From Spirochaetaceae bacterium (GTDB lineage Bacteria; Spirochaetota; Spirochaetia; SZUA-6; Bin103), in NCBI GenBank assembly GCA_028821475.1, contig JAPPGB010000028.1, positions 1 through 54,979 of the forward strand: a stretch of 54,979 nt of DNA, read 5' to 3'. The notes under the pieces are model-generated. The model was given only the letters and a program-made list of their open reading frames with translations. It was not told the DNA's origin and made no database searches. Shown here in pieces: positions 36,564 through 50,222 of this stretch. The number at the start of each line of letters is the position of its first letter. Position 1 is the first letter of the stretch. The position numbers and the translations under genes are program-made.

Positions 36564-37433
36564 CTATCCCACCGCGCCGGTGGTCGAGGGTTTGCCCCGC
36601 GGCGTCCTGGCCAGCAGCTTGGCCACGGCCGCCACCACCAGGAAGATGGCCACGCACACCAGGGCGACGGCGGCGCCCGACGCGACGCTGAAATAATAGG
36701 ACAGGTACAGACCGACCACTCCCGAGACGATTCCGATAGCCGCCGCTACGAGCACGGTGTGGTGGAAGCGACGCGTGATCTGCAACGCCGCGGCGGCGGG
36801 GGCGACGATCAGGGTCACCACCAGGGCTATGCCGATGGTCTGCAGCGCCACCACGATCGCGAGCGCGATGAGGAGATACTGCAGATAGGTCAGCAGCGTG
36901 GTCCTGAGCCTCAGCGAGGCGGCGAACACGGGGTCGAAGGTGACCACCACCAGCTCCTTGTAGAACAGCAGAACGACCACTGCAACGATCGCCGAAACCG
37001 CGCCGATACGCACCAGGTCGGCACCGGTTACGCTGAGCAGGTTGCCGAACAGGAAGTGCAGCAGATCGACGGCGAAGTTGCGCACGGTGGAGATGATGGC
37101 GATGCCAAGCGCGAACATGCCGGCGTACACGACGCCGACCGCGGCATCCTCGCCGACCCGGGAGCGGTGCACCAGGGTGGCCATCCCCAGCGAGGCGAGG
37201 ATGGCGGTGCCCGCGGCCCACCAGAACAGGCGGTCGCGGTCCGCGCCGCTCAGCAGGTAGCCGACGGCGATGCCGGGCACCAGGGAGTGGGCCAAGGCGG
37301 TGCCGATGTAGGACATGCCGCGCAGCACGGCGAAGGTGCCGACCAGGGCACACACCGACGCCACCATCGTAACTGCCAGCAGCGCCCGGCCGACGAACGG
37401 GTACGCGAGCGGAGCGAGGAGCAACTCGATCAC
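36564..37433 (-). CDS. Metal ABC transporter permease (ZnuB/MntB family)
   Basis: A 289-residue ABC-3 family permease with 8-9 membrane helices. Typical segments are LVGTFAVLRGMSYIGTALAHSLVPGIAVGYL, GEDAAVGVVYAGMFALG, HFLFGNLLSVT and AIVVALQTIGIALVVTLIVAPAAAAL. Its ATG overlaps the ATPase stop by four bases. Zn(II) is the likeliest ion, given the His/Asp/Glu-rich binding protein nearby; Mn(II) or Fe(II) cannot be ruled out. Confidence 0.93.
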   Translation of the reverse strand: MIELLLAPLAYPFVGRALLAVTMVASVCALVGTFAVLRGMSYIGTALAHSLVPGIAVGYLLSGADRDRLFWWAAGTAILASLGMATLVHRSRVGEDAAVGVVYAGMFALGIAIISTVRNFAVDLLHFLFGNLLSVTGADLVRIGAVSAIVAVVVLLFYKELVVVTFDPVFAASLRLRTTLLTYLQYLLIALAIVVALQTIGIALVVTLIVAPAAAALQITRRFHHTVLVAAAIGIVSGVVGLYLSYYFSVASGAAVALVCVAIFLVVAAVAKLLARTPRGKPSTTGAVG

Positions 37434-38197
37434 GGTGCGTGAATACTCTGTCGCCCGGCGGCGCTGTCCACGGCATTGCCGCCACGGGCGCCGATCGGCC
37501 GCACGTAATTGCCGTACGCGGCCGCCAGGTGCTCGGCCGCCAGCACGTCCCGGGGCGTGCCGGCCGCGATCAGGCGCCGATTCAACAGCATCACGCGCCC
37601 CAGGTGTTCAGCCACCCCCAGGTCGTGAGTGGCGACCATGACCGCCATCGACTCCCCGACCGCGTCCAGGGTCTCGGTAAGTTGGTGGCTGGCCTCGGCG
37701 TCGAGGCCGGCGTACGGCTCGTCGAGCAGCATGATCTCGGCCTCCTGCGCCAGCGCGCGGGCGATGAACATGCGCCGCCTCTGGCCGCCGGAGAGTTCAC
37801 CGATCTGCCGCCGGCGCAACCCGGTGATGGCGACCCGCTCCATGGCCTCGGCTACGATGGCGCGGTCCCTGCGCCCCGGGTAGCGGAAGTAGCGTACCCG
37901 GGCGACGCGCCCCATCGCCACCACGTCCTCGACGGTGGCGGGGAAGCGTGCGTTCGTGTTGGCCTGCTGCTCGATGTAGGCGATGCACACGTGGCGGTCG
38001 GATCTGCTGCCCGACACCTGCACCGTCCCACCGGTCGGCCTCAGAATCCCGGCAATGACCTTGAACAGGGTGCTCTTGCCGGCACCGTTGGGACCCACCA
38101 CCGCGATCCGCTCGCCGGCGGCCAAGTGCATCGAGACGCCTTCGAGAGCACAACGTCCGGCGTAGTAGGCCCATACGTCATGGAGATCGAGCACCAT
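37430..38197 (-). CDS. Metal ABC transporter ATP-binding protein (ZnuC family)
   Basis: A 255-residue ATPase: Walker A GPNGAGKST, Q-loop YIEQQANTNARFP, signature LSGGQRRRMFIARAL, Walker B IMLLDEPYAGLD and switch His in VATHDLGV. The C-terminal end is Gly/Ala-rich. The ATG at 38197 matches the family start (MVLDLHDVWAYYAG); an in-frame start at 38302 adds an unrelated basic stretch. The matching promoter lies at 38368-38396 under a Fur/Zur-like palindrome, which leaves a leader of about 160 bases. Confidence 0.93.
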   Translation of the reverse strand: MVLDLHDVWAYYAGRCALEGVSMHLAAGERIAVVGPNGAGKSTLFKVIAGILRPTGGTVQVSGSRSDRHVCIAYIEQQANTNARFPATVEDVVAMGRVARVRYFRYPGRRDRAIVAEAMERVAITGLRRRQIGELSGGQRRRMFIARALAQEAEIMLLDEPYAGLDAEASHQLTETLDAVGESMAVMVATHDLGVAEHLGRVMLLNRRLIAAGTPRDVLAAEHLAAAYGNYVRPIGARGGNAVDSAAGRQSIHAP

Positions 38198-38360
38198 GGC
38201 ACCGGCGTCGTGTGCCGGCTCGAGTCGGCGGCTGCGTCCGGCGCCGCCCCCTCGACGTGGACCGGGGTCGATCCCCGGCGACTTCGCCCTAGGCGACGGC
38301 ACGGCACACCGGCGGAGCGGAATCGGCCAGGATGTGTTGTTGTCTCGCGTACATACTATG

Positions 38361-38384
38361 ACAAATCATTATCATTAGTTTGCC
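38361..38384. promoter_or_regulatory. Fur/Zur-like operator over the ZnuCB promoter
   Basis: An AT-rich imperfect palindrome, ACAAATCATTATCATTAGTT followed by TGCC, in GC-rich surroundings. It resembles the repeated ATAAT/CATTA hexamers of Fur-family boxes and covers the -10 of the minus-strand promoter, the usual place for metal-dependent repression. Which family member binds cannot be told. Confidence 0.65.
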
Positions 38385-38457: not shown

Positions 38458-38482
38458 GTTTGGCAATATCATTAGCAAATTG
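38458..38482. promoter_or_regulatory. Second Fur/Zur-like palindrome, upstream of the permease-SPFH promoter
   Basis: TTTGGCAATATCATTAGCAA followed by ATTG is an imperfect palindrome with TTTG.C and GC.AAA ends, similar in style to the site at 38361. It lies 27 bp before the -35 of the plus-strand promoter, so it may activate or be a second half of a shared regulation. Confidence 0.5.
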
Positions 38483-38508: not shown

Positions 38509-38537
38509 TTGACCGACCTGGTTTACGACGCCATAAT
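38509..38537 (+). promoter_or_regulatory. Promoter for the permease-SPFH cluster
   Basis: TTGACC (38509-38514) and CATAAT (38532-38537) are spaced by 17 bases on the plus strand, about 48 bp before the likely TTG start. Another TTGACA just upstream (38497-38502) is spaced 19 bases from TTTACG and is less good. Confidence 0.6.
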
Positions 38538-38585: not shown

Positions 38586-40904
38586 TTGAGCGTATTTGCC
38601 GGGTTCTTCGGCTTTCTCTGGTCGTCGTTCCTGTTGCTGGCACCGATGCTGCTGCTGGGACTGTTCCTGGCCGGCGTGATCCACGTCATGATCTCGCGGC
38701 AGGCGATCCTGCGCTGGCTGCGCCACGACAGCCTGAAATCGGTAAGTACCAGCGCGGCGGTCGGCGTGCCGATCCCGCTGTGCAGTTGCTCGGTGGTGCC
38801 GGTGGTCGCCGAGATGCACCGCAAGGGGGCGTCGCGTTCGTCCTGCATGTCGTTCCTGATCACCGCTCCGGAGACCGGCGCCGACTCGATTCTGATCACC
38901 AACGCGTTCTTCGGGTTCCTGGCCGCCGTCGCTCGTCCGGTCATCAGCTTCATCACCGCCGTGGTGGCCGGCATCTTCTGCATCGGCATGATCCGCGACC
39001 GTCCGGCGCCGCACGATCACGATCACGATCACGATCACGAGCATGACCACGACCACGATGCCCATGATCATCACGGCCACGGTCATGGCGGCCACGACCA
39101 CGCGGTGCACGAGCCACTGCTGCCCGGCAGCGACGACTGCTACGTACGACCGTCGCAACTGAGGGCAGCCCTGGTCGGCTGGGCGCGCAGAACGGTGCAG
39201 AGCGTCAGCGAGAGTATCGGACGGCGCGAGACCGTTACCTGGGTCAAGCCCGATTTCTACCGTTCGGCTGCGTCCGCCGAGCAACCTCGTACGAGCCCCA
39301 GGAAACCGGCTGCGAGTGCCGAGGAACTGGACTTCAAGAACGTCATCAAGCACGTGTTCCGCTACGGGTTCGTCGAGATAGCCGACGACATCCTGTTCTC
39401 GCTGCTGGTCGGCGTAGCGCTCGGCGGGGTGCTCTACCTGGTGATCCCCGGCGACCTGATGGCCAACGAGTACGCGCGCTGGCTGTCCTATCCGATCATG
39501 GTGCTGGTGGGCGTCCCGCTCTACATCTGCGCCTCGGCGAGCACCCCCATCGCCGCCGCGCTGGTCGCCCGCGGCGTCAGTCCGGGGGCGGCGCTGATCT
39601 TTCTCATGACCGGACCGGCTACCAACACCGGCACCATCGCGATCATCGCCAACCAGTTCGGCGCCCGCTTCGCGTCGGTGTACGTGACCGTGGTCATCGT
39701 CGTCACGCTGGCAATCGGCATCCTGGTCGACACCCTGCTGCTCACCGCCGGGGTGACCCTGTCGGTGAATCTCGGCGCCGCCCAGGCCCCGGCGATCTAC
39801 TTCATCGAGTGGGTCGGCGCCTTCCTCCTCATCGCCCTGATCGTCTGGCGCTTCAAGGCCGGCGCCCTGAAGAGCGGTTACCAGGATCTGCTGTCCAACC
39901 TGCGGACGTTCTCGCCGCCCTGGAAACGCGCCTGGCGCCGCCTGACCCGCGGGCGGCCGCTGGCGGGGGTGATCTCTCCCACCGCGCCGCTGGGGATGGC
40001 GCTGTGGATCGCGCTGATCGTGGCGTTTGCCGCCACCGGGCTTACGGCGGTGCCGCCCGAGTCGGTGGGCTACGGCCGGCTGTTCGGAGCGGTCGTGTGG
40101 CGCGACCTGCCCCCGGGTCTGCACTACCTGGCGCCGCGCCCGCTGGTCAGCGTCGACCACTGGCCGGTCCGGGAGGTGAAGTCGGTCACCAATGCGGTGC
40201 CGTTCGAGTACCTGTCGGGCGAGATCAACCTGCTGGCGCTGTCCGTGAACGTGCAGTACCTGGTGCGGGATCCCTATGTCTATCACTACCGGACCGAAGA
40301 TCCCGAACGGGTGATCGTCGACAGCGTGCGGGATGAGGTACGCGCGTTCGTCGCCGCCGGCGACCTGAATCAACTGCTCAACGTACGGCGGGAAGAGTTG
40401 GAAGCGGAGATTCGCGCGCTGTTCTCGGGCTCCGCGGGTGAGCCGGCGCCGGTGCTGCAGGCGGTCGACCTGATCAAGGTGAACCTCGTCGCCATACAGC
40501 CGATCGGGGAGACGATGAGCGCGTTCCGGGAGATCTCCAGCTCCCAGGAAGACCGCGAACGCTACATCGTGGACGCGCAGCGGTTCATGGTGAGCCTGAT
40601 TCCGCAGGCGCACGGCAACGCCATCTACGAGGTCGAGCAGGCGGCCGGCGAGGCGTTCCGGAACGTGACCGCGTCGGCCGCGGAGGCCGCGGCGATCCGC
40701 GCGGTGTCACGCGCGGTGCAGGGAGCGCCCGACGTGCTTCAGAACATGCTGTGGCGCGAGAAGCTGGAGACGGCGCTGGCCGGCGACAACCACAAGATCA
40801 TCGTCCCGAGTCAAGACAGCCTGGACAAGGTAGCGCTGTGGAAGAGATCGGCGGCGTTGGTCCCCGGGCCCGTCGATGGGGGGAGTACGCGGACTCATGA
40901 ATAG
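38586..40904 (+). CDS. Permease with His-rich loop (SO_0444/DUF318 type) fused to an HflK-like SPFH domain
   Basis: A protein of about 772 residues from the TTG at 38586. Residues 1-140 hold the first membrane helices of a COG0701-type permease, with PIPLCSCSVVPV (Cys66, Cys68), EMHRKGAS and APETGADSI. Residues 143-176 are a loop of HD, HDH and HGH repeats, a likely metal-binding patch. Residues about 240-400 are the second permease half, with CASASTPIAAALVARGVSPGA and MTGPATNTGTI. A further helix leads into an SPFH (band 7) domain from about 485: ESVGYGRLFGAV, DLPPGLHYLAPRPL, LLALSVNVQYLVRDPYVYHYR, as in HflK. The permease half resembles SO_0444-type Cu/Zn efflux carriers. An in-frame TTG at 38460 lies upstream of the promoter and is rejected. 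The SPFH end overlaps the next SPFH gene by eight bases. Confidence 0.85.
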   Translation: MSVFAGFFGFLWSSFLLLAPMLLLGLFLAGVIHVMISRQAILRWLRHDSLKSVSTSAAVGVPIPLCSCSVVPVVAEMHRKGASRSSCMSFLITAPETGADSILITNAFFGFLAAVARPVISFITAVVAGIFCIGMIRDRPAPHDHDHDHDHEHDHDHDAHDHHGHGHGGHDHAVHEPLLPGSDDCYVRPSQLRAALVGWARRTVQSVSESIGRRETVTWVKPDFYRSAASAEQPRTSPRKPAASAEELDFKNVIKHVFRYGFVEIADDILFSLLVGVALGGVLYLVIPGDLMANEYARWLSYPIMVLVGVPLYICASASTPIAAALVARGVSPGAALIFLMTGPATNTGTIAIIANQFGARFASVYVTVVIVVTLAIGILVDTLLLTAGVTLSVNLGAAQAPAIYFIEWVGAFLLIALIVWRFKAGALKSGYQDLLSNLRTFSPPWKRAWRRLTRGRPLAGVISPTAPLGMALWIALIVAFAATGLTAVPPESVGYGRLFGAVVWRDLPPGLHYLAPRPLVSVDHWPVREVKSVTNAVPFEYLSGEINLLALSVNVQYLVRDPYVYHYRTEDPERVIVDSVRDEVRAFVAAGDLNQLLNVRREELEAEIRALFSGSAGEPAPVLQAVDLIKVNLVAIQPIGETMSAFREISSSQEDRERYIVDAQRFMVSLIPQAHGNAIYEVEQAAGEAFRNVTASAAEAAAIRAVSRAVQGAPDVLQNMLWREKLETALAGDNHKIIVPSQDSLDKVALWKRSAALVPGPVDGGSTRTHE

Positions 40905-41805
40905 GACTCGCAACCCGAGAAACAGAATCGTGGCAGCGGTCGTGGTGCTGGTGGTACTGGTGATCGCAGCCGACAGCTTCTACGTCATCGACGAGGCGCA
41001 ACAGGGCGTGCTGACCCACTTCGGCAAGATCAGGCTTCCCATCCGGCAGCCCGGCCTGCACCTCAAGTTCCCGCGCCCCATAGCGAAGATCTACAAGGTC
41101 GACCGGCGCATCCACACGCTCGACGGCATCGTGCAGGAGCTGATTACGGAGGACCAGAAGAACGTCCTGGTACACGGCTACCTGCTGTGGCGGGTCGCCG
41201 ACCCGGTCAAGTACGTCGAGGCGATTCGCACCGAGGCCAACGCGATCGACCGCCTGCGAGACCTGTACCTGTCCAGCAGCGGCATCGTGATCAGCAACAA
41301 GGCGCGCGACGCGTTCGTCAGTCTGGGGCTGCATCGCGAAGACCGGCACGTGGCGGCCGAGGAGATACTCGGGCGGATCAAACCCACCGCCGCCGCCGAA
41401 TACGGCATCGACATCCTCAGGGCCGGCATCGTCGAGTACACGTTGCCACCCGAGAACCGGCCCAGCGTCATCCAGCGCATGATCTCCGAGCGCGCGCGCA
41501 TCGCGGCCCGCTACCGCAGCGAGGGTGAAGAGATGGCGCTGCGCATCGAAGCGCTGGCGATCAACGAGCACGAGCGGCTCATGGCCAACGCCCATGCCGA
41601 GGCGACGGAGATTCTCGGCCAGGCGGAAGCGCAGGCTTTGGAGCTGCTCGGAGCGGCGTACCGGGAGGACCCCGACTTCTACAAGTTCGTCCGCGCACTC
41701 GACAGCTACGATGCGATCATCGACGACCGCACCACCCTCCTGCTGCCGGCCGACAACGAGCTGTTCAGGTACCTGGACGCCAACCGGATCCCGGCGCCGG
41801 AGTAG
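40897..41805 (+). CDS. HflC-like SPFH (band 7) protein
   Basis: A 302-residue protein with one N-terminal membrane helix (VAAVVVLVVLVIAADSFYV), then the SPFH domain: EAQQGVLTHFGKI, QPGLHLKFPRPIAKI, LDGIVQELITEDQKNVLVHGYLLWRVADPVKYVEA, as in HflC. A Glu/Ala-rich helix follows (about 190-260: MALRIEALAINEHERLMANA). It should assemble with the HflK-like partner as an outward-facing ring on the membrane. The neighbourhood has no FtsH, so it may scaffold the permease rather than a protease. The ATG at 40897 overlaps the previous gene. Confidence 0.88.
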   Translation: MNRTRNPRNRIVAAVVVLVVLVIAADSFYVIDEAQQGVLTHFGKIRLPIRQPGLHLKFPRPIAKIYKVDRRIHTLDGIVQELITEDQKNVLVHGYLLWRVADPVKYVEAIRTEANAIDRLRDLYLSSSGIVISNKARDAFVSLGLHREDRHVAAEEILGRIKPTAAAEYGIDILRAGIVEYTLPPENRPSVIQRMISERARIAARYRSEGEEMALRIEALAINEHERLMANAHAEATEILGQAEAQALELLGAAYREDPDFYKFVRALDSYDAIIDDRTTLLLPADNELFRYLDANRIPAPE

Positions 41806-41813
41806 CGCAGCGA

Positions 41814-43223
41814 ATGAGTGACGGGACCTCGCTACCGCCGAGCACGCGCATTATCTACGCCGTGTTCGATTACGCCGGGCAGCACAAGACCCGGATCCTG
41901 GCGGCGGCCGTCGCGGTGGCGGTCGCGGCGCTGCTGGTCAGCGGCGTTTACGTCGTCAAGAAGGAAGAACGCGGCGTTCGGGTGCGCTTCGGGAAGGTGA
42001 TCACCGCGGTGGTCGAGCCCGGTCTGCACTATCGGATTCCCCTCGTCGAACGCGCACACGTCCGCAAGGTGATGCGCATCGAGCGCCAGCGCATCGCCAG
42101 CCAGGGAGGCGATGCCGGCACCACGGCGTTCACCATCCTGTCCGGCGATACCAACCTGCTGGAGATCGACCTGGTCGTGCAGTACCGCATCGACAACCTG
42201 CGGGACTACCTGTACGCGTCGTCCGATCCTCACCGACTGCTCGCCCTGGTAACGCGCGAACAACTGGTCGACATCGTCGGCAGGAACTTCGTCGACCTGA
42301 TATTCACCCAGAACCGCGACTACATCGAGCGCCATCTGACCGAGCACACGATCGAGCAGCTCGCAGAGCACGGCATCGGCCTGGAGATTGTCTCGCTCAG
42401 CATCGTCGACGTGCGCCCGATCGCCGAAACCCTCCCCGCGTTCCGGGACGTCAACGACGCCATCGCCGAGCGCATGCAGGCGGTGAGCGATGCCAACCGG
42501 CGGCGGGAACAGCTCCTCGCCCACACCCGCGGTCAGGCCGAAGCGCTGCTGCTGAACGCAAAGGCGAAGGCGACGGAACGTGTCGTGCAGGCAGGTGCCA
42601 GCTCCACCGTATTCGCCGCGCTGCTCGGCGAGTACCGCGAACAGCCGGAACAGGTGGCGATCACCCGCTACTGGCAGCGCATGCGGACGATCTTCGCCGA
42701 AGCGCACCTGGCGGCGGTCAATCCCGATGCCGACTCCACCATCGACATCAACATGCTCGACGGCATTGCGACCTACCCGCCGGCCGCGCTGCCCGCGGAC
42801 GCGATGGCGGCTGCCGGTCGCGGCGAGATGGCCGACCGGCCGTTGCTGCCCACGCTGCAACCACCCGGAATGCACACGATCGAGACCGTGGAGGCGGACA
42901 AGCCACTGCTCGAAGGGCAGTTCCACGAGCCGCTCACGGAACGTGACCACGGCGCCGCGCACCCGCGTTCGCTGCTGTTCGACACCCCGTCGATCTTCAC
43001 TCACCGGCACGCCGTAACGCGTGCCCTCCGCGGCCTGCGGCCGCGAGCGGAGGCGCCGAGCGCCCGCCGACCGGCGGATGAAACGGGTGCAGCAGACCCG
43101 TATGCGCACCAGGTACCAGCCGACCCGGAACCGACCGGCCAGACCCTGGTTGACCAGACCTCGGCCGAACAAGCTTCGGTGTCGCCGTCGACGGACAAGG
43201 GTGACCATGGCGCCGATGACTGA
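41814..43223 (+). CDS. HflK-like SPFH (band 7) protein with disordered tail
   Basis: A 469-residue protein. One membrane helix (about 28-48), then the SPFH domain: KKEERGVRVRFGKVI, VEPGLHYRIPLVERAHVRKV, ILSGDTNLLEIDLVVQYRIDNLRDYL, with the HflK-type helix ADANRRREQLL replaced by SDANRRREQLLAHTRGQAEALLLNAKAKATERVV. After about residue 330 the chain is Pro/Ala/acidic and likely disordered, ending near EQASVSPSTDKGDHGADD. It starts nine bases after the HflC-like gene and overlaps the following binding-protein gene by 17 bp. So three SPFH domains are encoded in a row. Confidence 0.88.
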   Translation: MSDGTSLPPSTRIIYAVFDYAGQHKTRILAAAVAVAVAALLVSGVYVVKKEERGVRVRFGKVITAVVEPGLHYRIPLVERAHVRKVMRIERQRIASQGGDAGTTAFTILSGDTNLLEIDLVVQYRIDNLRDYLYASSDPHRLLALVTREQLVDIVGRNFVDLIFTQNRDYIERHLTEHTIEQLAEHGIGLEIVSLSIVDVRPIAETLPAFRDVNDAIAERMQAVSDANRRREQLLAHTRGQAEALLLNAKAKATERVVQAGASSTVFAALLGEYREQPEQVAITRYWQRMRTIFAEAHLAAVNPDADSTIDINMLDGIATYPPAALPADAMAAAGRGEMADRPLLPTLQPPGMHTIETVEADKPLLEGQFHEPLTERDHGAAHPRSLLFDTPSIFTHRHAVTRALRGLRPRAEAPSARRPADETGAADPYAHQVPADPEPTGQTLVDQTSAEQASVSPSTDKGDHGADD

Positions 43224-44373
43224 GTGTCCGGGCCGCAGGCAGGGCTCGTTCCTGACCGTCTGTCTCGTTCTTCTGACAGCGTGTCTGCCGGCGGCGGCCG
43301 CCCCGGGGGTCACCGACAGCGCGATCGTGTTCGGCCAGAGCGCGAGTCTGTCGGGTCCGAACCGCCATCTCGGGATTCACTACCAGGCGGGCATCGAGGC
43401 CGCCTTCGGCGAGCGCAACCGGCGCGGCGGGGTTGCCGGCAGGATGCTGGAGCTCAGTTCGCTGGACGATCATTACGAGCCGGAGCAGGCGGCCGCCAAT
43501 GCCCGCTTGTTCGCCGACCGGAACGACGTATTCGCCGTAGTCGGCGGGGTGGGCACGCCGACCGCCCAGCGCATGGTGCCGATCCTGCGGGCGGCGGGCA
43601 TTCCGTTCGTCGGCCCCTTCACCGGGGCCGACTTCCTGCGCGACCCCGCGCGCTCTCCCAACGTGGTCAACCTGCGCGCCGGGTATCTCGACGAAACGCG
43701 GGTGCTGGTTGACTACATGCTCAATGCCCTGGGGAAGCGCCGCTTCGGGATCATCTACCAGGACGACGCCTTCGGCCGCTCGGTCCTCAGGAACTTCCAC
43801 TTGGTGCTGGAGAGTTACGACCTTCCGATCCTGGCTCGATCCACCTTTTCGCGCAACACGCACGCGGTCCATGCCAGCCTGTTCACCCTGGCCAAGGCGG
43901 ATCTGGACGCCATCCTGGTCGTGGGGAGCTATCCCGTCAATTCGCTCATTGTCAATCTGGCCGATGCCCTGGGCCACGAGTACGTGATCGCCAACCTGTC
44001 GTTCGTGGGCTCGCAAGCACTCCGGGACGGGATAGAACACCCGAGCGAACGAATCCTGGTGACGGAAGTGATGCCGGACCCGCAGGACCTTACCCGGTCG
44101 CTGGTGCGACGCTTCCGGGCCGCCATGGTGGCGCAGCACGCCGCCGACGAGGTGGACCACCTGACCGACGCCGTATCGCTCGAGGGATACGTCCTGGGCC
44201 GGTTCGTGATCCACGTGCTGGAGCGGATGGGCGGCGAACTGACCCGCGAGCGTTTTCTGGACACTGCGCTGTCGCCCGATCCGGTGGCGATCGAGGACTG
44301 GACCATTCGATTCGAGCCCGGTACCAATGTCGGCTCCGACTACGTCAGATTGACCCATTTGGGACAGCCATGA
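43207..44373 (+). CDS. Periplasmic type I binding protein (branched-chain amino acid ABC type)
   Basis: A 388-residue secreted Peripla_BP_6 (LivJ-like) protein. The signal peptide (FLTVCLVLLTACLPAAAAPG) contains LLTAC, so it might be lipidated. The family start is DSAIVFGQSASLSGPNRHLGIHYQAGIEAAF, then RGGVAGRMLEL, LDDHYEPEQAAANARLF, VGGVGTPTAQRMVPIL and FGIIYQDDAFGRSV. No LivFGMH genes adjoin, so it is not a standard transporter partner and may act as a sensor for the SPFH/permease assembly. The ATG at 43207 follows AAGGG and overlaps the SPFH gene. Confidence 0.87.
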   Translation: MAPMTECPGRRQGSFLTVCLVLLTACLPAAAAPGVTDSAIVFGQSASLSGPNRHLGIHYQAGIEAAFGERNRRGGVAGRMLELSSLDDHYEPEQAAANARLFADRNDVFAVVGGVGTPTAQRMVPILRAAGIPFVGPFTGADFLRDPARSPNVVNLRAGYLDETRVLVDYMLNALGKRRFGIIYQDDAFGRSVLRNFHLVLESYDLPILARSTFSRNTHAVHASLFTLAKADLDAILVVGSYPVNSLIVNLADALGHEYVIANLSFVGSQALRDGIEHPSERILVTEVMPDPQDLTRSLVRRFRAAMVAQHAADEVDHLTDAVSLEGYVLGRFVIHVLERMGGELTRERFLDTALSPDPVAIEDWTIRFEPGTNVGSDYVRLTHLGQP

Positions 44374-44404
44374 CAGCCATGACTGCCATGAAGGAGAGTA
44401 GCCG

Positions 44405-44893
44405 TTGAAAAAGCTGGACGAATTCTCCGCCGAGGAGACCGGCGAGGAGTGGCTGCGCGAACTCTACAAGGTCATAACCATGCGGCGCACTTCGATGTTC
44501 CGGCTGATTACCGAGTCGGTTCGGCTGCTGCTGTTCGGCAATGGCGGAGGAGTGGCGCTGATCATCGGCTTCATGAGCGCCTTCGGCGGCACTGACACCG
44601 CCTCGTTCCACTGGCTCGCGCTGGGCACGCTGGTCCTGTTCGCATGCGGAACCCTGGTCGCCGCGCTGACCATGCTGCTGGTAACCGCGGTCACGGTACA
44701 GGAAGCGCACGGCGCGGAAAAGGGACTGAAACGGTTCGTCGACGGCGACACGGACCGCACGCAGACGCTGTTCACCATCGAGCCGCACACCTTTCGGCTC
44801 GCCGACTACGCCACGCTGTGCGGCATCGTCAGCACGGGAGCGTTCCTGCTCGGCGGCCTCGGCAGCATCGTTCTGCTGATCCTGTTCTTCTAG
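44405..44893 (+). CDS. Small membrane protein of unknown family
   Basis: A 162-residue protein with three or four hydrophobic segments (LLLFGNGGGVALIIGFMSAF, then WLALGTLVLFACGTLVAALTMLLV, and a C-terminal GIVSTGAFLLGGLGSIVLLIL), with a charged N-terminus and a cytoplasmic-looking loop of acidic and basic residues between. The start is a TTG at 44405 with AAGGAG nine bases before it. I do not recognise the family. It follows the binding protein by 31 bp and is the last gene of the SPFH cluster. Confidence 0.75.
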   Translation: MKKLDEFSAEETGEEWLRELYKVITMRRTSMFRLITESVRLLLFGNGGGVALIIGFMSAFGGTDTASFHWLALGTLVLFACGTLVAALTMLLVTAVTVQEAHGAEKGLKRFVDGDTDRTQTLFTIEPHTFRLADYATLCGIVSTGAFLLGGLGSIVLLILFF

Positions 44894-44920: not shown

Positions 44921-45874
44921 CTAGAACAACTGGGTCACGCTGAAGGCGACGGCGACGCTGGCGGCGAGGCCTATCGTCGCCTTGAAGGCGTCCTTGATTA
45001 CCAGCATGGTGGTGTCGCGGTGCGAACGCAGCATGGTGTCGAACCCGACCGCGAACTCACGTCCGGCGAGCAGACCCAGAAACACCCACGTCGTGCTCAT
45101 CGGCACGTTGCTGAGCTCCTTGAAGACGAACAGGATCACGCCGAAGATAAAGTCGATTACCGTCGCCGAGCGAATGTCTGCGGTGTTGATCTTGGTGGTG
45201 ACGATGCGCTGGATTTTGCCGCCACGGAGATAGAACATCCAGGCGTGCAACGCCAGCATGACGGCGACAACCACGATCAACAGTTCGATACCGATCTCGC
45301 GCGGCAGGTATACGGCAATGTTGGCTATGTCCTGAACCAGCCACTGACTCCACAGGAACGCCGTCGACAGCCACTGGAGCGCGACCCAGTACGACGCCGG
45401 CTTGCGCTTGGAGGTTTCGATGAAGCGGCGTTCGGCGATGCGCATCACCAGGCGATAGACCAGGTAGCCTACCGTCAACGCCACCGCGTAGCCCAGCAGC
45501 GACTTGGTCAGCATGCTGCCCAGCCCGCCCGGGTTGAACGCGGTCAGGATCAGGAACGTGGTGCTGACCGGAATGCCGAATCGGGTCAGCCCGAGAAGCA
45601 CGGCGGGCGGAATCAGCATCCACCAACTGAACGTCTCCAGCTCCGGAATCTTCGCCAGTCTTCCGTACGAGATGTCTCCGTCCTGGGTGAAATATCCGAA
45701 CAGAAATACGGCTACCAGCACACCGCCGGCGAACAGCCAGAGCAGCCACCAGGGGCGGTGCGCGTTCGACACCAGAAACGTGCCGAGCGTCTGAATCGCA
45801 TCGTTGGCAACCACCGCGTAACCGGCCATCAGAAATCCGACTATCATGTAGATCTCTGTGGCGGAAAATGGCAT
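44921..45874 (-). CDS. PiT-like (inorganic phosphate transporter-related) membrane protein
   Basis: A 317-residue integral membrane protein. Two PiT-type half-repeats can be seen: YAVVANDAIQTLGTFLV and, later, LSNVPMSTTWVFLGLLAGREF, matching the GANDxxN and PxSTTH signatures in degenerate form. IPVSTTFLILTAF is another PiT-like segment. The missing N in ANDAIQ suggests that phosphate may not be the substrate; related proteins carry sulfate. The ATG at 45874 follows GAGGAG; the upstream frame is not conserved. It is convergent with the SPFH cluster and divergent from the GPP34 gene. Confidence 0.8.
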   Translation of the reverse strand: MPFSATEIYMIVGFLMAGYAVVANDAIQTLGTFLVSNAHRPWWLLWLFAGGVLVAVFLFGYFTQDGDISYGRLAKIPELETFSWWMLIPPAVLLGLTRFGIPVSTTFLILTAFNPGGLGSMLTKSLLGYAVALTVGYLVYRLVMRIAERRFIETSKRKPASYWVALQWLSTAFLWSQWLVQDIANIAVYLPREIGIELLIVVVAVMLALHAWMFYLRGGKIQRIVTTKINTADIRSATVIDFIFGVILFVFKELSNVPMSTTWVFLGLLAGREFAVGFDTMLRSHRDTTMLVIKDAFKATIGLAASVAVAFSVTQLF

Positions 45875-45917
45875 CTCGTACTCCTCGAAGTCCGCGCATG
45901 GTAACATGTGGACACCC

Positions 45918-46574
45918 ATGTTGACTATTGTCGAAGAGATACTTCTGCTGGTACTGGACGAGAAAACCGGCAAGTTTCAGGACCGGTTGCCGGTGCACTC
46001 GCTGCGCCACGCGGCAAGCGGAGCGGTGCTCATGGAACTGGCGCTGAATGACCGCATCGACACCGATGTCCACCAGCTCTTCGTGGTGGATCCGAAACCG
46101 CTCGGGGAGCCGGTGCTGGACCGCAGCCTGGCACGGATCGTCGCGGACGGCGGGAACCGGCCGACCAGCCATTGGGTGGGCGCATTCGCGGAAGAGTACG
46201 ACTCCTTGCAGCGGCAACTGCTCGACCGCCTGGTCGAGCGCGGCATCCTGGCTCGGCACGAAGAGCGGCTGCTGTGGGTGTTCGGTTCGCGCCGTTATCC
46301 GGTGGTGGAAGGGAGCCCGCTACGCGACGTCAAGCGGCGCATCATGGACGTACTGTTGACCGACACGATTCCCGATCCGCGCGACGTGGTGATCATCTGC
46401 CTGGCCGACGCCTGCGCCCTGTGGCACAGCCTGATCCACCCGCGCGAGCTGGCCGGGATGGAGCCGCGGATCGCGCAAGTGGTCAAGCTGGACCTGATCG
46501 GCCAGTCGGTCGCACGTACCATTCGCGAACTGCAGGACGCCACCCGCGGCCTCGAAGCCAAGTGGTTCAAGTAA
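45918..46574 (+). CDS. GPP34 (Golgi phosphoprotein 3) family protein
   Basis: A 218-residue cytoplasmic, peripheral membrane-type protein. The opening LTIVEEILLLVLDEKTGKF, then RHAASGAVLMELALNDRID and the helix-rich rest match the GPP34 fold, which in eukaryotes binds phosphatidylinositol-4-phosphate and recruits Golgi glycosyltransferases; bacterial members are of unknown role. Starts at 45906 and 45918 are both possible. It is divergent from the PiT-like gene across 43 bp. Confidence 0.8.
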   Translation: MLTIVEEILLLVLDEKTGKFQDRLPVHSLRHAASGAVLMELALNDRIDTDVHQLFVVDPKPLGEPVLDRSLARIVADGGNRPTSHWVGAFAEEYDSLQRQLLDRLVERGILARHEERLLWVFGSRRYPVVEGSPLRDVKRRIMDVLLTDTIPDPRDVVIICLADACALWHSLIHPRELAGMEPRIAQVVKLDLIGQSVARTIRELQDATRGLEAKWFK

Positions 46575-46623: not shown

Positions 46624-47682
46624 TCAAGGTGCCAGTGCGGCCACGATACGCTCGACGTTGGTACGCATGAAGTCCTGATACGTTGCGGCGGGACCACCGG
46701 GTTCGCTCAGCGAACCGGTATAGATGGCCACCAGCTCGATGCCCAGGTCATCGGCCACTGTTTGCGCGGTCTGCGGACTCACCGTAGTGCCGATGAAGAT
46801 CGCCGGAATGCCATGTTCGGCGATCGTCTCCCGCAGTTGCGCCAAGTGGCGGGCGGACGGCTCGGATGCCGTGCTTACGCCGGGAACGACAGTCTCCAAC
46901 AGCTCGAAGCCGTAACGATCGGCAAAGTAACTCAGCACGTCATGGTCGGTCACCAGGACACGAAGCGGTGCGGGGACGGCGCTTACCCGGCTCCTGATCC
47001 ATGCATCCAGTTCTTGCAGCTCGTCGCTCAGCGTGGCTGCGCGGGCGGCGTACTCCGCGGCGTGCTCAGGGTCCACCTCGGCGAGCGCCTCCGCGATCTC
47101 GACCGTCCACCCGGCGACCAGCGTCGGGTCCATCCACACGTGGGCATCGAATTCTCCATGATGGTCCTCTTCCTCGCCGTGGTGGTCTTCTTCCTCGCCG
47201 TCCTCACCGTGGTCGTCGGCCTCGCCGTCTTCCTCGTCCTCCTCGTCATGGTGGTCTTCTTCGTCACCATCACCGGGCTCCTCATCGTGTTCCTCCTCCT
47301 CGACATCGTCCATCCTCCGAAGCGGCAGGTGCGCGGAAACCTCCACCATGCGGCGCGGCTCGGCGGTCTCCAGCAGGCTGCCGAGAAAGTCGGCTTCGAG
47401 CCCGGCGCCGTTGGCAAACAGCACGTCGGCATCGGCAACGTGGCGCAGGTCACGGGGGGTCGGCTGAAACACGTGAGGATCGACGCCCGGAGCCAGCATT
47501 ACGTAGAGCGAGATCCGGTCACCCCCGATACCGGCGACGATGTCGCCAACGATGGTGGTAGTCGCCACCACCAATACGGCGTCGCCGGACGGCTGTTCCT
47601 GTGCCGGGGAGGCGAACAGATACGGCGTCGCGAGTGCGAGCGCGACGACCAGGGTCGCATTCTGAATCAGTCTGATGTGCAT
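46624..47682 (-). CDS. ZnuA-like metal-binding periplasmic protein
   Basis: A 352-residue secreted cluster A-I binding protein. Signal peptide ends about LFASPAQEQ. Metal His are in GVDPHVFQPTPRDL, FDAHVWMDP and VLVTDHDVLSYFADRYGF, with the last Asp/Glu near IYTGSL. Between them (about 125-177) sits a long loop of D, E and H (EEDHHDEEDEED and similar), the hallmark of zinc-specific ZnuA proteins, where it acts as a zinc sink. It most likely serves the ZnuBC pair at 36.6-38.2 kb, although the SPFH cluster lies between. The ATG at 47682 has alternatives at 47688 and 47691. Confidence 0.9.
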   Translation of the reverse strand: MHIRLIQNATLVVALALATPYLFASPAQEQPSGDAVLVVATTTIVGDIVAGIGGDRISLYVMLAPGVDPHVFQPTPRDLRHVADADVLFANGAGLEADFLGSLLETAEPRRMVEVSAHLPLRRMDDVEEEEHDEEPGDGDEEDHHDEEDEEDGEADDHGEDGEEEDHHGEEEDHHGEFDAHVWMDPTLVAGWTVEIAEALAEVDPEHAAEYAARAATLSDELQELDAWIRSRVSAVPAPLRVLVTDHDVLSYFADRYGFELLETVVPGVSTASEPSARHLAQLRETIAEHGIPAIFIGTTVSPQTAQTVADDLGIELVAIYTGSLSEPGGPAATYQDFMRTNVERIVAALAP

Positions 47683-47837
47683 GGCCATCATCCTACTATA
47701 ACGACAGCTCATTACCAATTAGGAGTGGGGTCCGGTTCGAGGCCGTTCGGTTCATGCCTCGCCCCGCGCGGCGTCACCCGGATCGGAGTGCAGGATACGC
47801 ACTCGTCTCACGCGCCAATGCACCGACGTGCGTTTCA

Positions 47838-48680: not shown

Positions 48681-49139
48681 TCAGGGGCGTACGGCCAGTT
48701 CGTCGGTCAGGAAGCCGGAGCGGTCGGGGTCGAGCAGGAACGCGCCTGCGCCGGCGGCAGCGGGCTCGGCGTCTCCTGTGTCCGGCGCCACGCGCCGCCG
48801 GATCGACATGATGACGTAGACGAAGTTGGGCTGCGCCCAGGCGAGGTCAGTGGCGCTCGGCTCGGCCGGGTGCTCGGGATGCGAGTGGTAGAAGCCGAGC
48901 AGCGTCTTGCCGGCGCCGTCGGCGGCGCGCTCGGCGGCGAGGTAGGCGAGCGGCGACACCAGGTAGCGGCGCTTGCGGTTCTCGCCGGAACGGTTGTCGA
49001 TCGGAAACAGGCGCTCCACGGTGCGCCCATTCCCGCCCGCGGTCACGGCCCCGATCAGCGCACCGACGCACTCTTCCGGATAGGCATCGCGGCCGTGCCG
49101 CTCAATCTCATCGAACAGGATCTTCGGTAGCGTCGTCAT
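48681..49139 (-). CDS. JAMM/Mov34 metallopeptidase (Mec-like)
   Basis: A 152-residue stand-alone JAB/JAMM protease. The zinc and catalytic residues fit ExnHxHx10D: Glu22 or 23 (PEECVGAL), His85 and His87 in GFYHSHPEHP and Asp98. In mycobacteria, Mec removes the terminal Cys from the CysO-cysteine adduct. Its ATG overlaps, ATGA-style, with the stop of the unshifted CysM frame, so the two were a coupled pair. It could also cut CysO away from the CysO-MoeZ fusion, which ends its ubiquitin-like part in GG. Confidence 0.9.
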   Translation of the reverse strand: MTTLPKILFDEIERHGRDAYPEECVGALIGAVTAGGNGRTVERLFPIDNRSGENRKRRYLVSPLAYLAAERAADGAGKTLLGFYHSHPEHPAEPSATDLAWAQPNFVYVIMSIRRRVAPDTGDAEPAAAGAGAFLLDPDRSGFLTDELAVRP

Positions 49140-49205
49140 CGTCCTCTTCCACCGGCGTTTCCGGCCGCCGCTGCCGCGGATCGGAACGGGTCCTCGATCA
49201 CGTAG

Positions 49206-50222
49206 TCATCGTTCTCGACTGGCGGCAGCGCGGTCCGCGGGCCGGAATGGGTCTTCGGAAACATACTCCTCGTTCTCGACTGGCGGCAGTGCGGTCCGCG
49301 GCCGGAATGGGTCTTCGGAAACATACTCCTCGTTCTCCCAGTACGGATCATCCAGGTACTTCAGCGAGTTGTCCGGGAACAGGGTAACCACGGTGGCGCC
49401 GGGGTTGCCGCGCGCCACCTCCAGGGCTGCCCACAGGTTGGCGGCCGCGCTTGGGCTGAGCGCGTAGCCCAGGTAGCGCCCGGCCGCGATCGCGAACCGG
49501 TAGGCAGTCTCGGTGTCCGCCTCCAGCACCTCGTCGGCCACGGCCGTGTCGTAGATGCCGGGCACGCGGGCGGTCGGCATGTGCTTCCAGCCTTCCAGGC
49601 CGTGGATCGGGTTGTCCGGCTGCACGGCGATGCAGCGCACGCCGCGCTCGCGCAGGAACCGGGCGGTGCCGATGAAGGTGCCGCTGGTGCCCAGGCCGGC
49701 CACGAAGTGGGTCGCCTGACCGCCCGACTGCCGCCAGATCTCGGGCCCGGTGCCGGCGTAGTGGGCGCGCCAGTTGTGCTCGTTGTTGTACTGGTCGGGA
49801 TAGAAGTAACGGTCGGGGTGCGCGGCGGCCAGCTCCGCCGCCTTCTTCTGCGCGCCGTCGGTGCCTTCCAGGTTGGAGGTGAACAGTGAGCGCGCGCCGT
49901 AGTTGGCGATGATGCGCTTGCGCTCCGGGGTGACGTTGGCCGGCATCACCAGCTCCACCGGCAGCCCGAGCGCGCTGCCGAACATGGCCAGCGCGATGCC
50001 GGTGTTGCCGCTGGTCGCCTCCAGGATGGTGCGCCCGGCCAGCGCGCCGCCGGCCAGCGCGGCCTCCACCATCCCCTTCGCCGCGCGGTCCTTCACCGAG
50101 CCGCTCGGGTTGTAGTATTCCAGCTTGGCCAGGATGCGCGCCGCCGACGCGGTCTGGGAGATCTCCACCAGCGGCGTGTTCCCCACCAGGCGCGCGACAC
50201 GCTCGAAGGCGTCGACTCGCAT
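49206..50222 (-). CDS. cysM: CysM-like cysteine synthase with C-terminal repeats and apparent frameshift
   Basis: A 338-residue PLP enzyme. Lys44 in NPSGSVKDR binds PLP, EATSGNTGIALAM is the substrate loop, and GLGTSGTFIGTARFL the phosphate loop. GNTPLVEI at the start is standard. It is of the OASS-B (CysM) type rather than CysK, consistent with use of O-phosphoserine or O-acetylserine with a carrier thiocarboxylate. The tail contains ENEEYVSEDPFRP units and then turns to an out-of-frame ADRAAASRER. Ignoring one extra G (49239-49241), the frame runs on through VENDDYVIEDPFR to 49136. It lies nine bp after the E1 gene and is likely co-transcribed. Confidence 0.88.
   Translation of the reverse strand: MRVDAFERVARLVGNTPLVEISQTASAARILAKLEYYNPSGSVKDRAAKGMVEAALAGGALAGRTILEATSGNTGIALAMFGSALGLPVELVMPANVTPERKRIIANYGARSLFTSNLEGTDGAQKKAAELAAAHPDRYFYPDQYNNEHNWRAHYAGTGPEIWRQSGGQATHFVAGLGTSGTFIGTARFLRERGVRCIAVQPDNPIHGLEGWKHMPTARVPGIYDTAVADEVLEADTETAYRFAIAAGRYLGYALSPSAAANLWAALEVARGNPGATVVTLFPDNSLKYLDDPYWENEEYVSEDPFRPRTALPPVENEEYVSEDPFRPADRAAASRER
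49210..49330 (-). repeat. Tandem 60-bp repeat in the cysM tail
   Basis: Two near-identical units (49210-49270, 61 bases; 49271-49330, 60 bases) encode an EYVSEDPFRPRTALPPVENE-type 20-residue repeat. The first listed unit has a GGG where the other has GG, which shifts the frame. A partial third unit continues on the left (ENDDYVIEDPF). Confidence 0.88.

Follow-up and report, generated by a model that had tools for sequence, protein, structure and literature searches.

Domes built of SPFH proteins occur in all domains of life, and what most of them contain is unclear. HflK and HflC form cages of 24 alternating subunits (PMC12048511), and in erythrocytes the SPFH dome of stomatin encloses the membrane transporters aquaporin-1 and UT-B (PMC12407830). 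We compare such systems with a gene cluster of a Spirochaetaceae bacterium (contig JAPPGB010000028.1 of assembly GCA_028821475.1, positions 1 to 54,979), in which a gene for a metal permease of the SO_0444 type fused to an HflK-like SPFH protein (A) is followed by genes for an HflC-like (C) and an HflK-like (K) protein. The whole stretch of 54,979 nucleotides, which makes up contig C28 in a draft genome of 5.73 Mb and 183 contigs, is called the window, and the A-C-K set is called the triad.

A published plan with three SPFH genes and a metal transporter is the hmtA operon PA2434-PA2439 of Pseudomonas aeruginosa, in which HmtA is a P1B ATPase described as an importer (PMC4542158). PA2437, PA2438 and PA2439 belong to the HflC/HflK families and were 14.4-, 10.6- and 9.0-fold up in a znuA mutant, and the operon has a weak putative Zur site (PMC4542158). 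Zinc depletion also raised the abundance of the three proteins, an increase that the authors describe as significant for PA2438 and PA2439 (PMC11761036). The same genes, named PaFlo7, PaFlo6 and PaFlo5 (PA14_33110, PA14_33080 and PA14_33070), have a patchy distribution and were probably acquired horizontally; their deletion slightly reduced biofilm and attenuated the strain in Galleria (PMC13086221). These three papers are cited from the parts accessible to us, and a transporter-SPFH fusion is not mentioned in those parts. The zinc link and the A-C-K order of the window agree with this plan, whereas the P. aeruginosa transporter is a separate P1B ATPase, and no such ATPase lies beside the triad of the window. 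The initial annotation of this DNA had held that no described system has this layout; the accessible text on PA2434-PA2439/PaFlo5-7 contradicts this for the set of SPFH genes and leaves it standing for the fusion, of which no published example was found in the literature searched, a collection that omits most subscription journals.

The permease-SPFH fusion and its neighbours

The cluster consists of five genes:

38586-40904, plus strand: A subunit, permease-SPFH fusion of 772 aa (start TTG at 38586, stop at 40904; Pfam, NCBIfam, sequence and fold matches in PDB, AlphaFold2 model)
40876-41805, plus strand: C subunit, HflC-like SPFH protein, 29-nt overlap with A (163.9 bits to TIGR01932, above the cut-off of 134.4)
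41814-43223, plus strand: K subunit, HflK-like SPFH protein with a long C-terminal tail, 8 nt after C (147.8 bits to TIGR01933, under the cut-off of 159.4)
43207-44373, plus strand: type I periplasmic binding protein (Peripla_BP_6, Pfam E 7e-42), start at 43207 or 43216, overlapping the stop of K
44405-44893, plus strand: small membrane protein from the list of open reading frames, with no family match in Pfam or NCBIfam

The fusion is encoded by a single frame without a stop, which is open upstream as far as 38460; Pfam residue numbers are counted from this limit and not from the TTG at 38586. Pfam places ArsP_1 (48-423, E 9.6e-46) and Band_7 (550-697, E 1.4e-6) on this one frame. The permease half belongs to NF033936, the SO_0444 family of Cu/Zn efflux permeases (COG0701), with 327.7 bits against a curated cut-off of 300, and the C-terminal half is a partial HflK by NCBIfam, with 100 bits to TIGR01933, under the cut-off of 159.4. 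The permease region (about residues 1-393) has a CSC motif (PLCSCS), an ICAS motif and a His-rich loop at about 143-172; it is followed by a K/R-rich linker (422-470), a transmembrane helix (467-489), the HflK-like SPFH domain (486-640) and C-terminal helices. In the initial annotation a COG0701 permease with PLCSCS and a His-rich loop had been described as fused to an HflK-like SPFH domain and as followed by the four genes listed above; Pfam and NCBIfam agree with this, and the order and the overlaps are as it reported. Members of the SO_0444 family are normally solo. The window protein keeps their Cys motifs but carries Band_7 in the same chain and is thus not a stand-alone permease, and has no ArsR-like regulator adjoining its gene.

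The AlphaFold2 model of the fusion (14 rows) has a mean pLDDT of 67.6, with the SPFH domain (486-640) good, the permease fair, and the His-rich loop and the tail undefined. The best PDB matches of the SPFH part are HflK and HflC, both by sequence and by fold. Sequence search gave no solved structure for this permease, and the permease model (residues 1-393) aligns best to NaDC3, Pho90 and INDY (8uve: Z 15.2, 288 residues, 5.3 Å), whose fold consists of two pseudo-symmetric halves with re-entrant hairpins; as the model is helical, membrane-embedded and only moderately confident, this likeness is suggestive. The predicted topology, which is HflK-like, has the His-rich loop and the linker in the cytoplasm and the SPFH domain in the periplasm, because the crossings of the model, hydropathy and the positive-inside charge point that way.

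The initial annotation had proposed a search for the fusion across genomes, and this returned a rare yet recurrent arrangement. NF033936 proteins above the cut-off are present in 23 of 347 genomes of the class, and two of the 23 are fused to SPFH. The second fusion, in a genome of another family of the class (G026), has 742 aa and 31% identity to that of the window, and is followed by HflC and HflK genes in the same order, with the genes overlapping. Its permease half scores 326 bits to NF033936, above 300; the His-rich loop of the window fusion is missing from it. Among 28 Pseudomonadota genomes having above-cut-off members no such fusion was found, and the other NF033936 members above the cut-off in Spirochaetia and Pseudomonadota have open frames of 348-552 aa. 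A search of genome contigs with the fusion as query gave just distant solo permeases. Two further permease genes were seen: an SO_0444-type permease with an apparent heavy-metal-associated end (GMTCHYC), another extension (L169 1462-2868, G913:C74), and a 794-aa open frame with a COG0701-like match, read through a single in-frame TGA (G052:C41:5801-6898), which is either another fusion or a recoded or split gene.

Triads with other heads and their separation from housekeeping HflKC

Seven triads were compared in total, namely those of the window, G026, an Aquibium oceanicum plasmid (L099), an IMG/VR contig (L252) and three further plasmids. The Aquibium plasmid carries hflK-hflC-hflK, and the leading "HflK" consists of a CDF transporter domain (PF01545, E 4.5e-25) joined to SPFH; L252 has a CDF-SPFH head 38% identical to it. 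Both CDF heads keep HxxxD motifs in transmembrane helices 2 and 5, which we take to be the zinc-type site of the family, and lack the CDF C-terminal domain. At both loci the order is response regulator, histidine kinase, CDF-SPFH, HflC, HflK, PpiC-type isomerase and Zn/Cd-type P1B ATPase, and the L252 locus also holds an ArsR/SmtB gene. CdfX of Cupriavidus metallidurans is likewise a membrane domain without the cytoplasmic C-terminal dimerisation domain and exports zinc (PMC11580412), which a CDF protein can thus do without this domain; it differs from the CDF heads in having no SPFH fusion and in being controlled by ZntR. The metal island of Aquibium recurs on a plasmid of Nitratireductor rhodophyticola (L257 7024-12152) as a natural deletion variant, in which neither the histidine kinase nor the SPFH triad stands between the response regulator and the PpiC/P1B ATPase genes.

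Plasmids of Burkholderia, Paraburkholderia and Klebsiella have A-C-K followed by a P1B ATPase, and one of the three triads adjoins a metal ABC transporter. These three triads are of the hmtA type, sharing the plan of P. aeruginosa PA2434-PA2439. Their A subunits (568-631 aa) have an N-terminal part with 5-6 transmembrane helices that matches no Pfam family:

L262 5898-6800, L263 6014-6850 and L264 6085-6800: multi-transmembrane N-terminal domain of the plasmid A subunits

With hhalign, no likeness of this part to CDF was detected. Two unrelated metal-transporter families, SO_0444 and CDF, stand at the same head position of a conserved A-C-K order in a metal-gene neighbourhood. Beside the other triads examined, neither a gene for the binding protein nor one for the small membrane protein was seen, and we treat both as local accessories of the window outside the conserved core.

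Further searches were less productive. With P0001 as query against 398 Pseudomonadota, chiefly housekeeping HflK was retrieved, and the CDF half of P0001 gave no more fusions; in the stretches examined of Pseudomonadota genomes with at least two K matches, no triads were present. Scans of viral contigs with P0001, A1, A4, A6 and A7 found nothing past L252 and a pair of adjoining HflK-like and HflC-like genes on a large phage-like contig (L253/L260 7031-8927, IMG/VR UViG_3300038361_000164, 210 kb).

The window genome also has housekeeping hflK and hflC, on contig C154 (298.9 and 306.2 bits to TIGR01933 and TIGR01932, respectively). The C proteins of four triads (window, G026, L099 and L252) form one clade with support 98/92, and the A and K proteins of these loci fall outside the housekeeping HflK clade with support 93/95 (92/93 with seven loci). 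The window C is 37% identical to C of G026 and 36% to that of L252, compared with 27% to HflC of its own genome. By these trees and identities, the window triad is paralogous to, and separate from, the housekeeping hflKC genes of the window genome and G026.

Regulation and proposed function

The region upstream of the fusion is shared with a divergent zinc-type ABC uptake operon:

36564-37433, minus strand: metal ABC permease, ABC-3, AztB/ZnuB-type (PF00950, E 1.7e-67)
37430-38302, minus strand: metal ABC ATPase, AztA/ZnuC-type, divergent from the fusion (Pfam, NCBIfam)
38364-38378: operator-like box AATCATTATCATTAG, overlapping the -10 hexamer of a minus-strand (ABC-side) promoter-like site at 38396-38368
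38464-38475: partial copy of the box, CAATATCATTAG, 12 nt, upstream of the plus-strand promoter-like site (repeat search)
38509-38537, plus strand: promoter-like TTGACC-17-CATAAT before the fusion (consensus scan)

With two mismatches at most, the box has two sites in the 5.73 Mb, where 0.24 are expected from composition and a reversed control gave none. Both sites are at zinc-type ABC operons, the second being on contig C106, 11 bp upstream of a ZnuA/AztC-type gene that is followed by its ATPase gene. We take the box as a putative Zur-like operator.

Our preferred explanation, to which we give a probability of about 0.45, is that the triad makes a cage like that of HflK/C, equipped with a metal transporter of its own and serving zinc homeostasis rather than plain efflux. 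A, C and K would assemble on the periplasmic side of the inner membrane into a hetero-oligomeric dome, apart from housekeeping HflKC. The K-type A would carry the metal transporter where HflK has a short cytoplasmic tail, so that copies of the transporter would be locked in or under the dome, and the transporter may move Zn(II), possibly also Cu, between the cytoplasm and the dome-enclosed space or membrane patch. The triad would then act in zinc homeostasis alongside zinc-type ABC uptake, and the dome might gate transport, hand metal off to periplasmic partners or protect the transporter. The stomatin complexes offer a parallel, as an SPFH dome around a membrane transporter, although they are non-covalent, involve another SPFH subfamily and do not handle metal. 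Family evidence somewhat favours transport out of the cytoplasm into the periplasm; regulation points to a role in zinc limitation, and the direction itself is our guess. That the SPFH set is linked to metal and tied to a transporter of its own, as proposed in the initial annotation, is supported by the CDF-headed triads; efflux, which it also proposed, is a conjecture to be set against the divergent uptake operon, the operator-like box and the induction of the P. aeruginosa operon of this plan by zinc depletion.

If this explanation is right, a likely cargo attached covalently, with several transporter modules, gives a testable answer for one class of SPFH dome, namely a metal transporter, and a possible reason for the otherwise unexplained zinc response of three P. 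aeruginosa SPFH genes. The triad points to a little-known way of coupling metal transport to a membrane compartment. We tentatively see in the transporter-bearing SPFH triads, at a little less than even odds, a class of their own among the compartments in which bacteria handle metal: a plasmid-mobile periplasmic zinc chamber for zinc homeostasis, with head modules (SO_0444, CDF, multi-transmembrane) placed on a K-type subunit at least twice.

Several points weigh against the zinc-homeostasis cage. An exporter under the control of zinc limitation is paradoxical. Both the co-assembly of A, C and K as a ring and transport by the triad proteins are inferred. The box lies at the divergent ABC promoter, and control of the triad by a Zur-like regulator is likewise inferred; a Mn or other Fur-family regulator could be acting at the box, since the binding proteins score alike on Mn families (that on C106 has 242 bits to AztC vs 236 to MntC). 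No metal ABC gene adjoins the G026 triad. The kinship of the P. aeruginosa proteins is drawn from gene order and annotation. When the three plasmid triads are added, the support for a single triad-C clade drops to 76/42; the SPFH part of the window A is a highly diverged long branch and the A/K tree is weak within triads, so that branching inside the triads is unsettled because of the long branches of the window proteins. Since A and K of the three plasmid triads are sisters (support 98/92), the extra K-type subunit arose at least twice. Finally, the sample is only seven triads.

Unlikely, yet the best of the other explanations, is a plain metal-resistance pump, whose SO_0444 half would export excess Zn or Cu while the SPFH partners cluster or stabilise it in a microdomain. 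SO_0444 of Shewanella is required for growth under ZnSO4 and CuCl2 stress (PMC3219624), a family member of Nitratiruptor is induced by Cd and Cu (PMC10092412), the CDF-type triad loci contain Zn/Cd-type P1B ATPases and an ArsR/SmtB regulator, and solo SO_0444 genes of four Spirochaetia adjoin ArsR-like regulators. The window fusion, however, has no such neighbour and is divergent from an uptake operon with which it shares the operator-like box, and the P. aeruginosa triad answers zinc depletion (PMC4542158, PMC11761036).

More doubtful is a role of the triad as another HflKC-like cage, to which FtsH would be recruited under metal stress and for which the transporter would serve as tether or client. 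HflK/C cages enclose FtsH, a zinc metalloprotease (PMC12048511), and the A subunit shares with E. coli HflK/HflC the SPFH fold, a single transmembrane helix ahead of it and C-terminal helices. The absence of FtsH reported in the initial annotation holds for the window and not for the genome, in which FtsH is encoded on C106 (236 bits). Unlike the E. coli system, however, the window has a third SPFH subunit with an N-terminal transporter, and the triad proteins lie outside the clade of a housekeeping hflKC pair that the genome already has. There is no ftsH in the window or adjoining any triad seen, which is a weak point because ftsH of E. coli is not adjacent to hflKC either.

Less probable again is a folding or quality-control platform, on which the SPFH set and a PpiC chaperone would help in the assembly or turnover of metal transporters, a separate P1B ATPase among them. 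This would suit the PpiC-type isomerase gene lying between K and the P1B ATPase at two loci and the P1B ATPase directly after K at three more, but PpiC and P1B ATPase genes are missing near the triad of G026 and from the flanking genes of the window cluster, which include metal ABC genes instead, and the fused transporter is left without a reason. An assembly or annotation artefact joining two genes, which a draft of 183 contigs might suggest, is to be dismissed because an unrelated assembly holds a second, diverged fusion with its genes in this order and the window frame has no stop.

Other genes of the window

One more metal gene lies near the cluster and is regarded as a neighbour, not as part of the core:

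46624-47718, minus strand: ZnuA/AztC-type metal-binding protein with a His/acidic loop (PF01297, E 1.2e-81), at which no box was found

At 45858-46571 (plus strand) a protein of the GPP34 (Golgi phosphoprotein 3) family is encoded, next to an open reading frame at 44921-45973 that is membrane-transporter-like and has no Pfam match. A cysteine-synthase-like open reading frame at 49206-50222 (minus strand) has C-terminal near-repeats, NEEYVSEDPFR...ENEEYVSEDPFR, and related repeats are present in the adjoining short open reading frame at 49136-49351.

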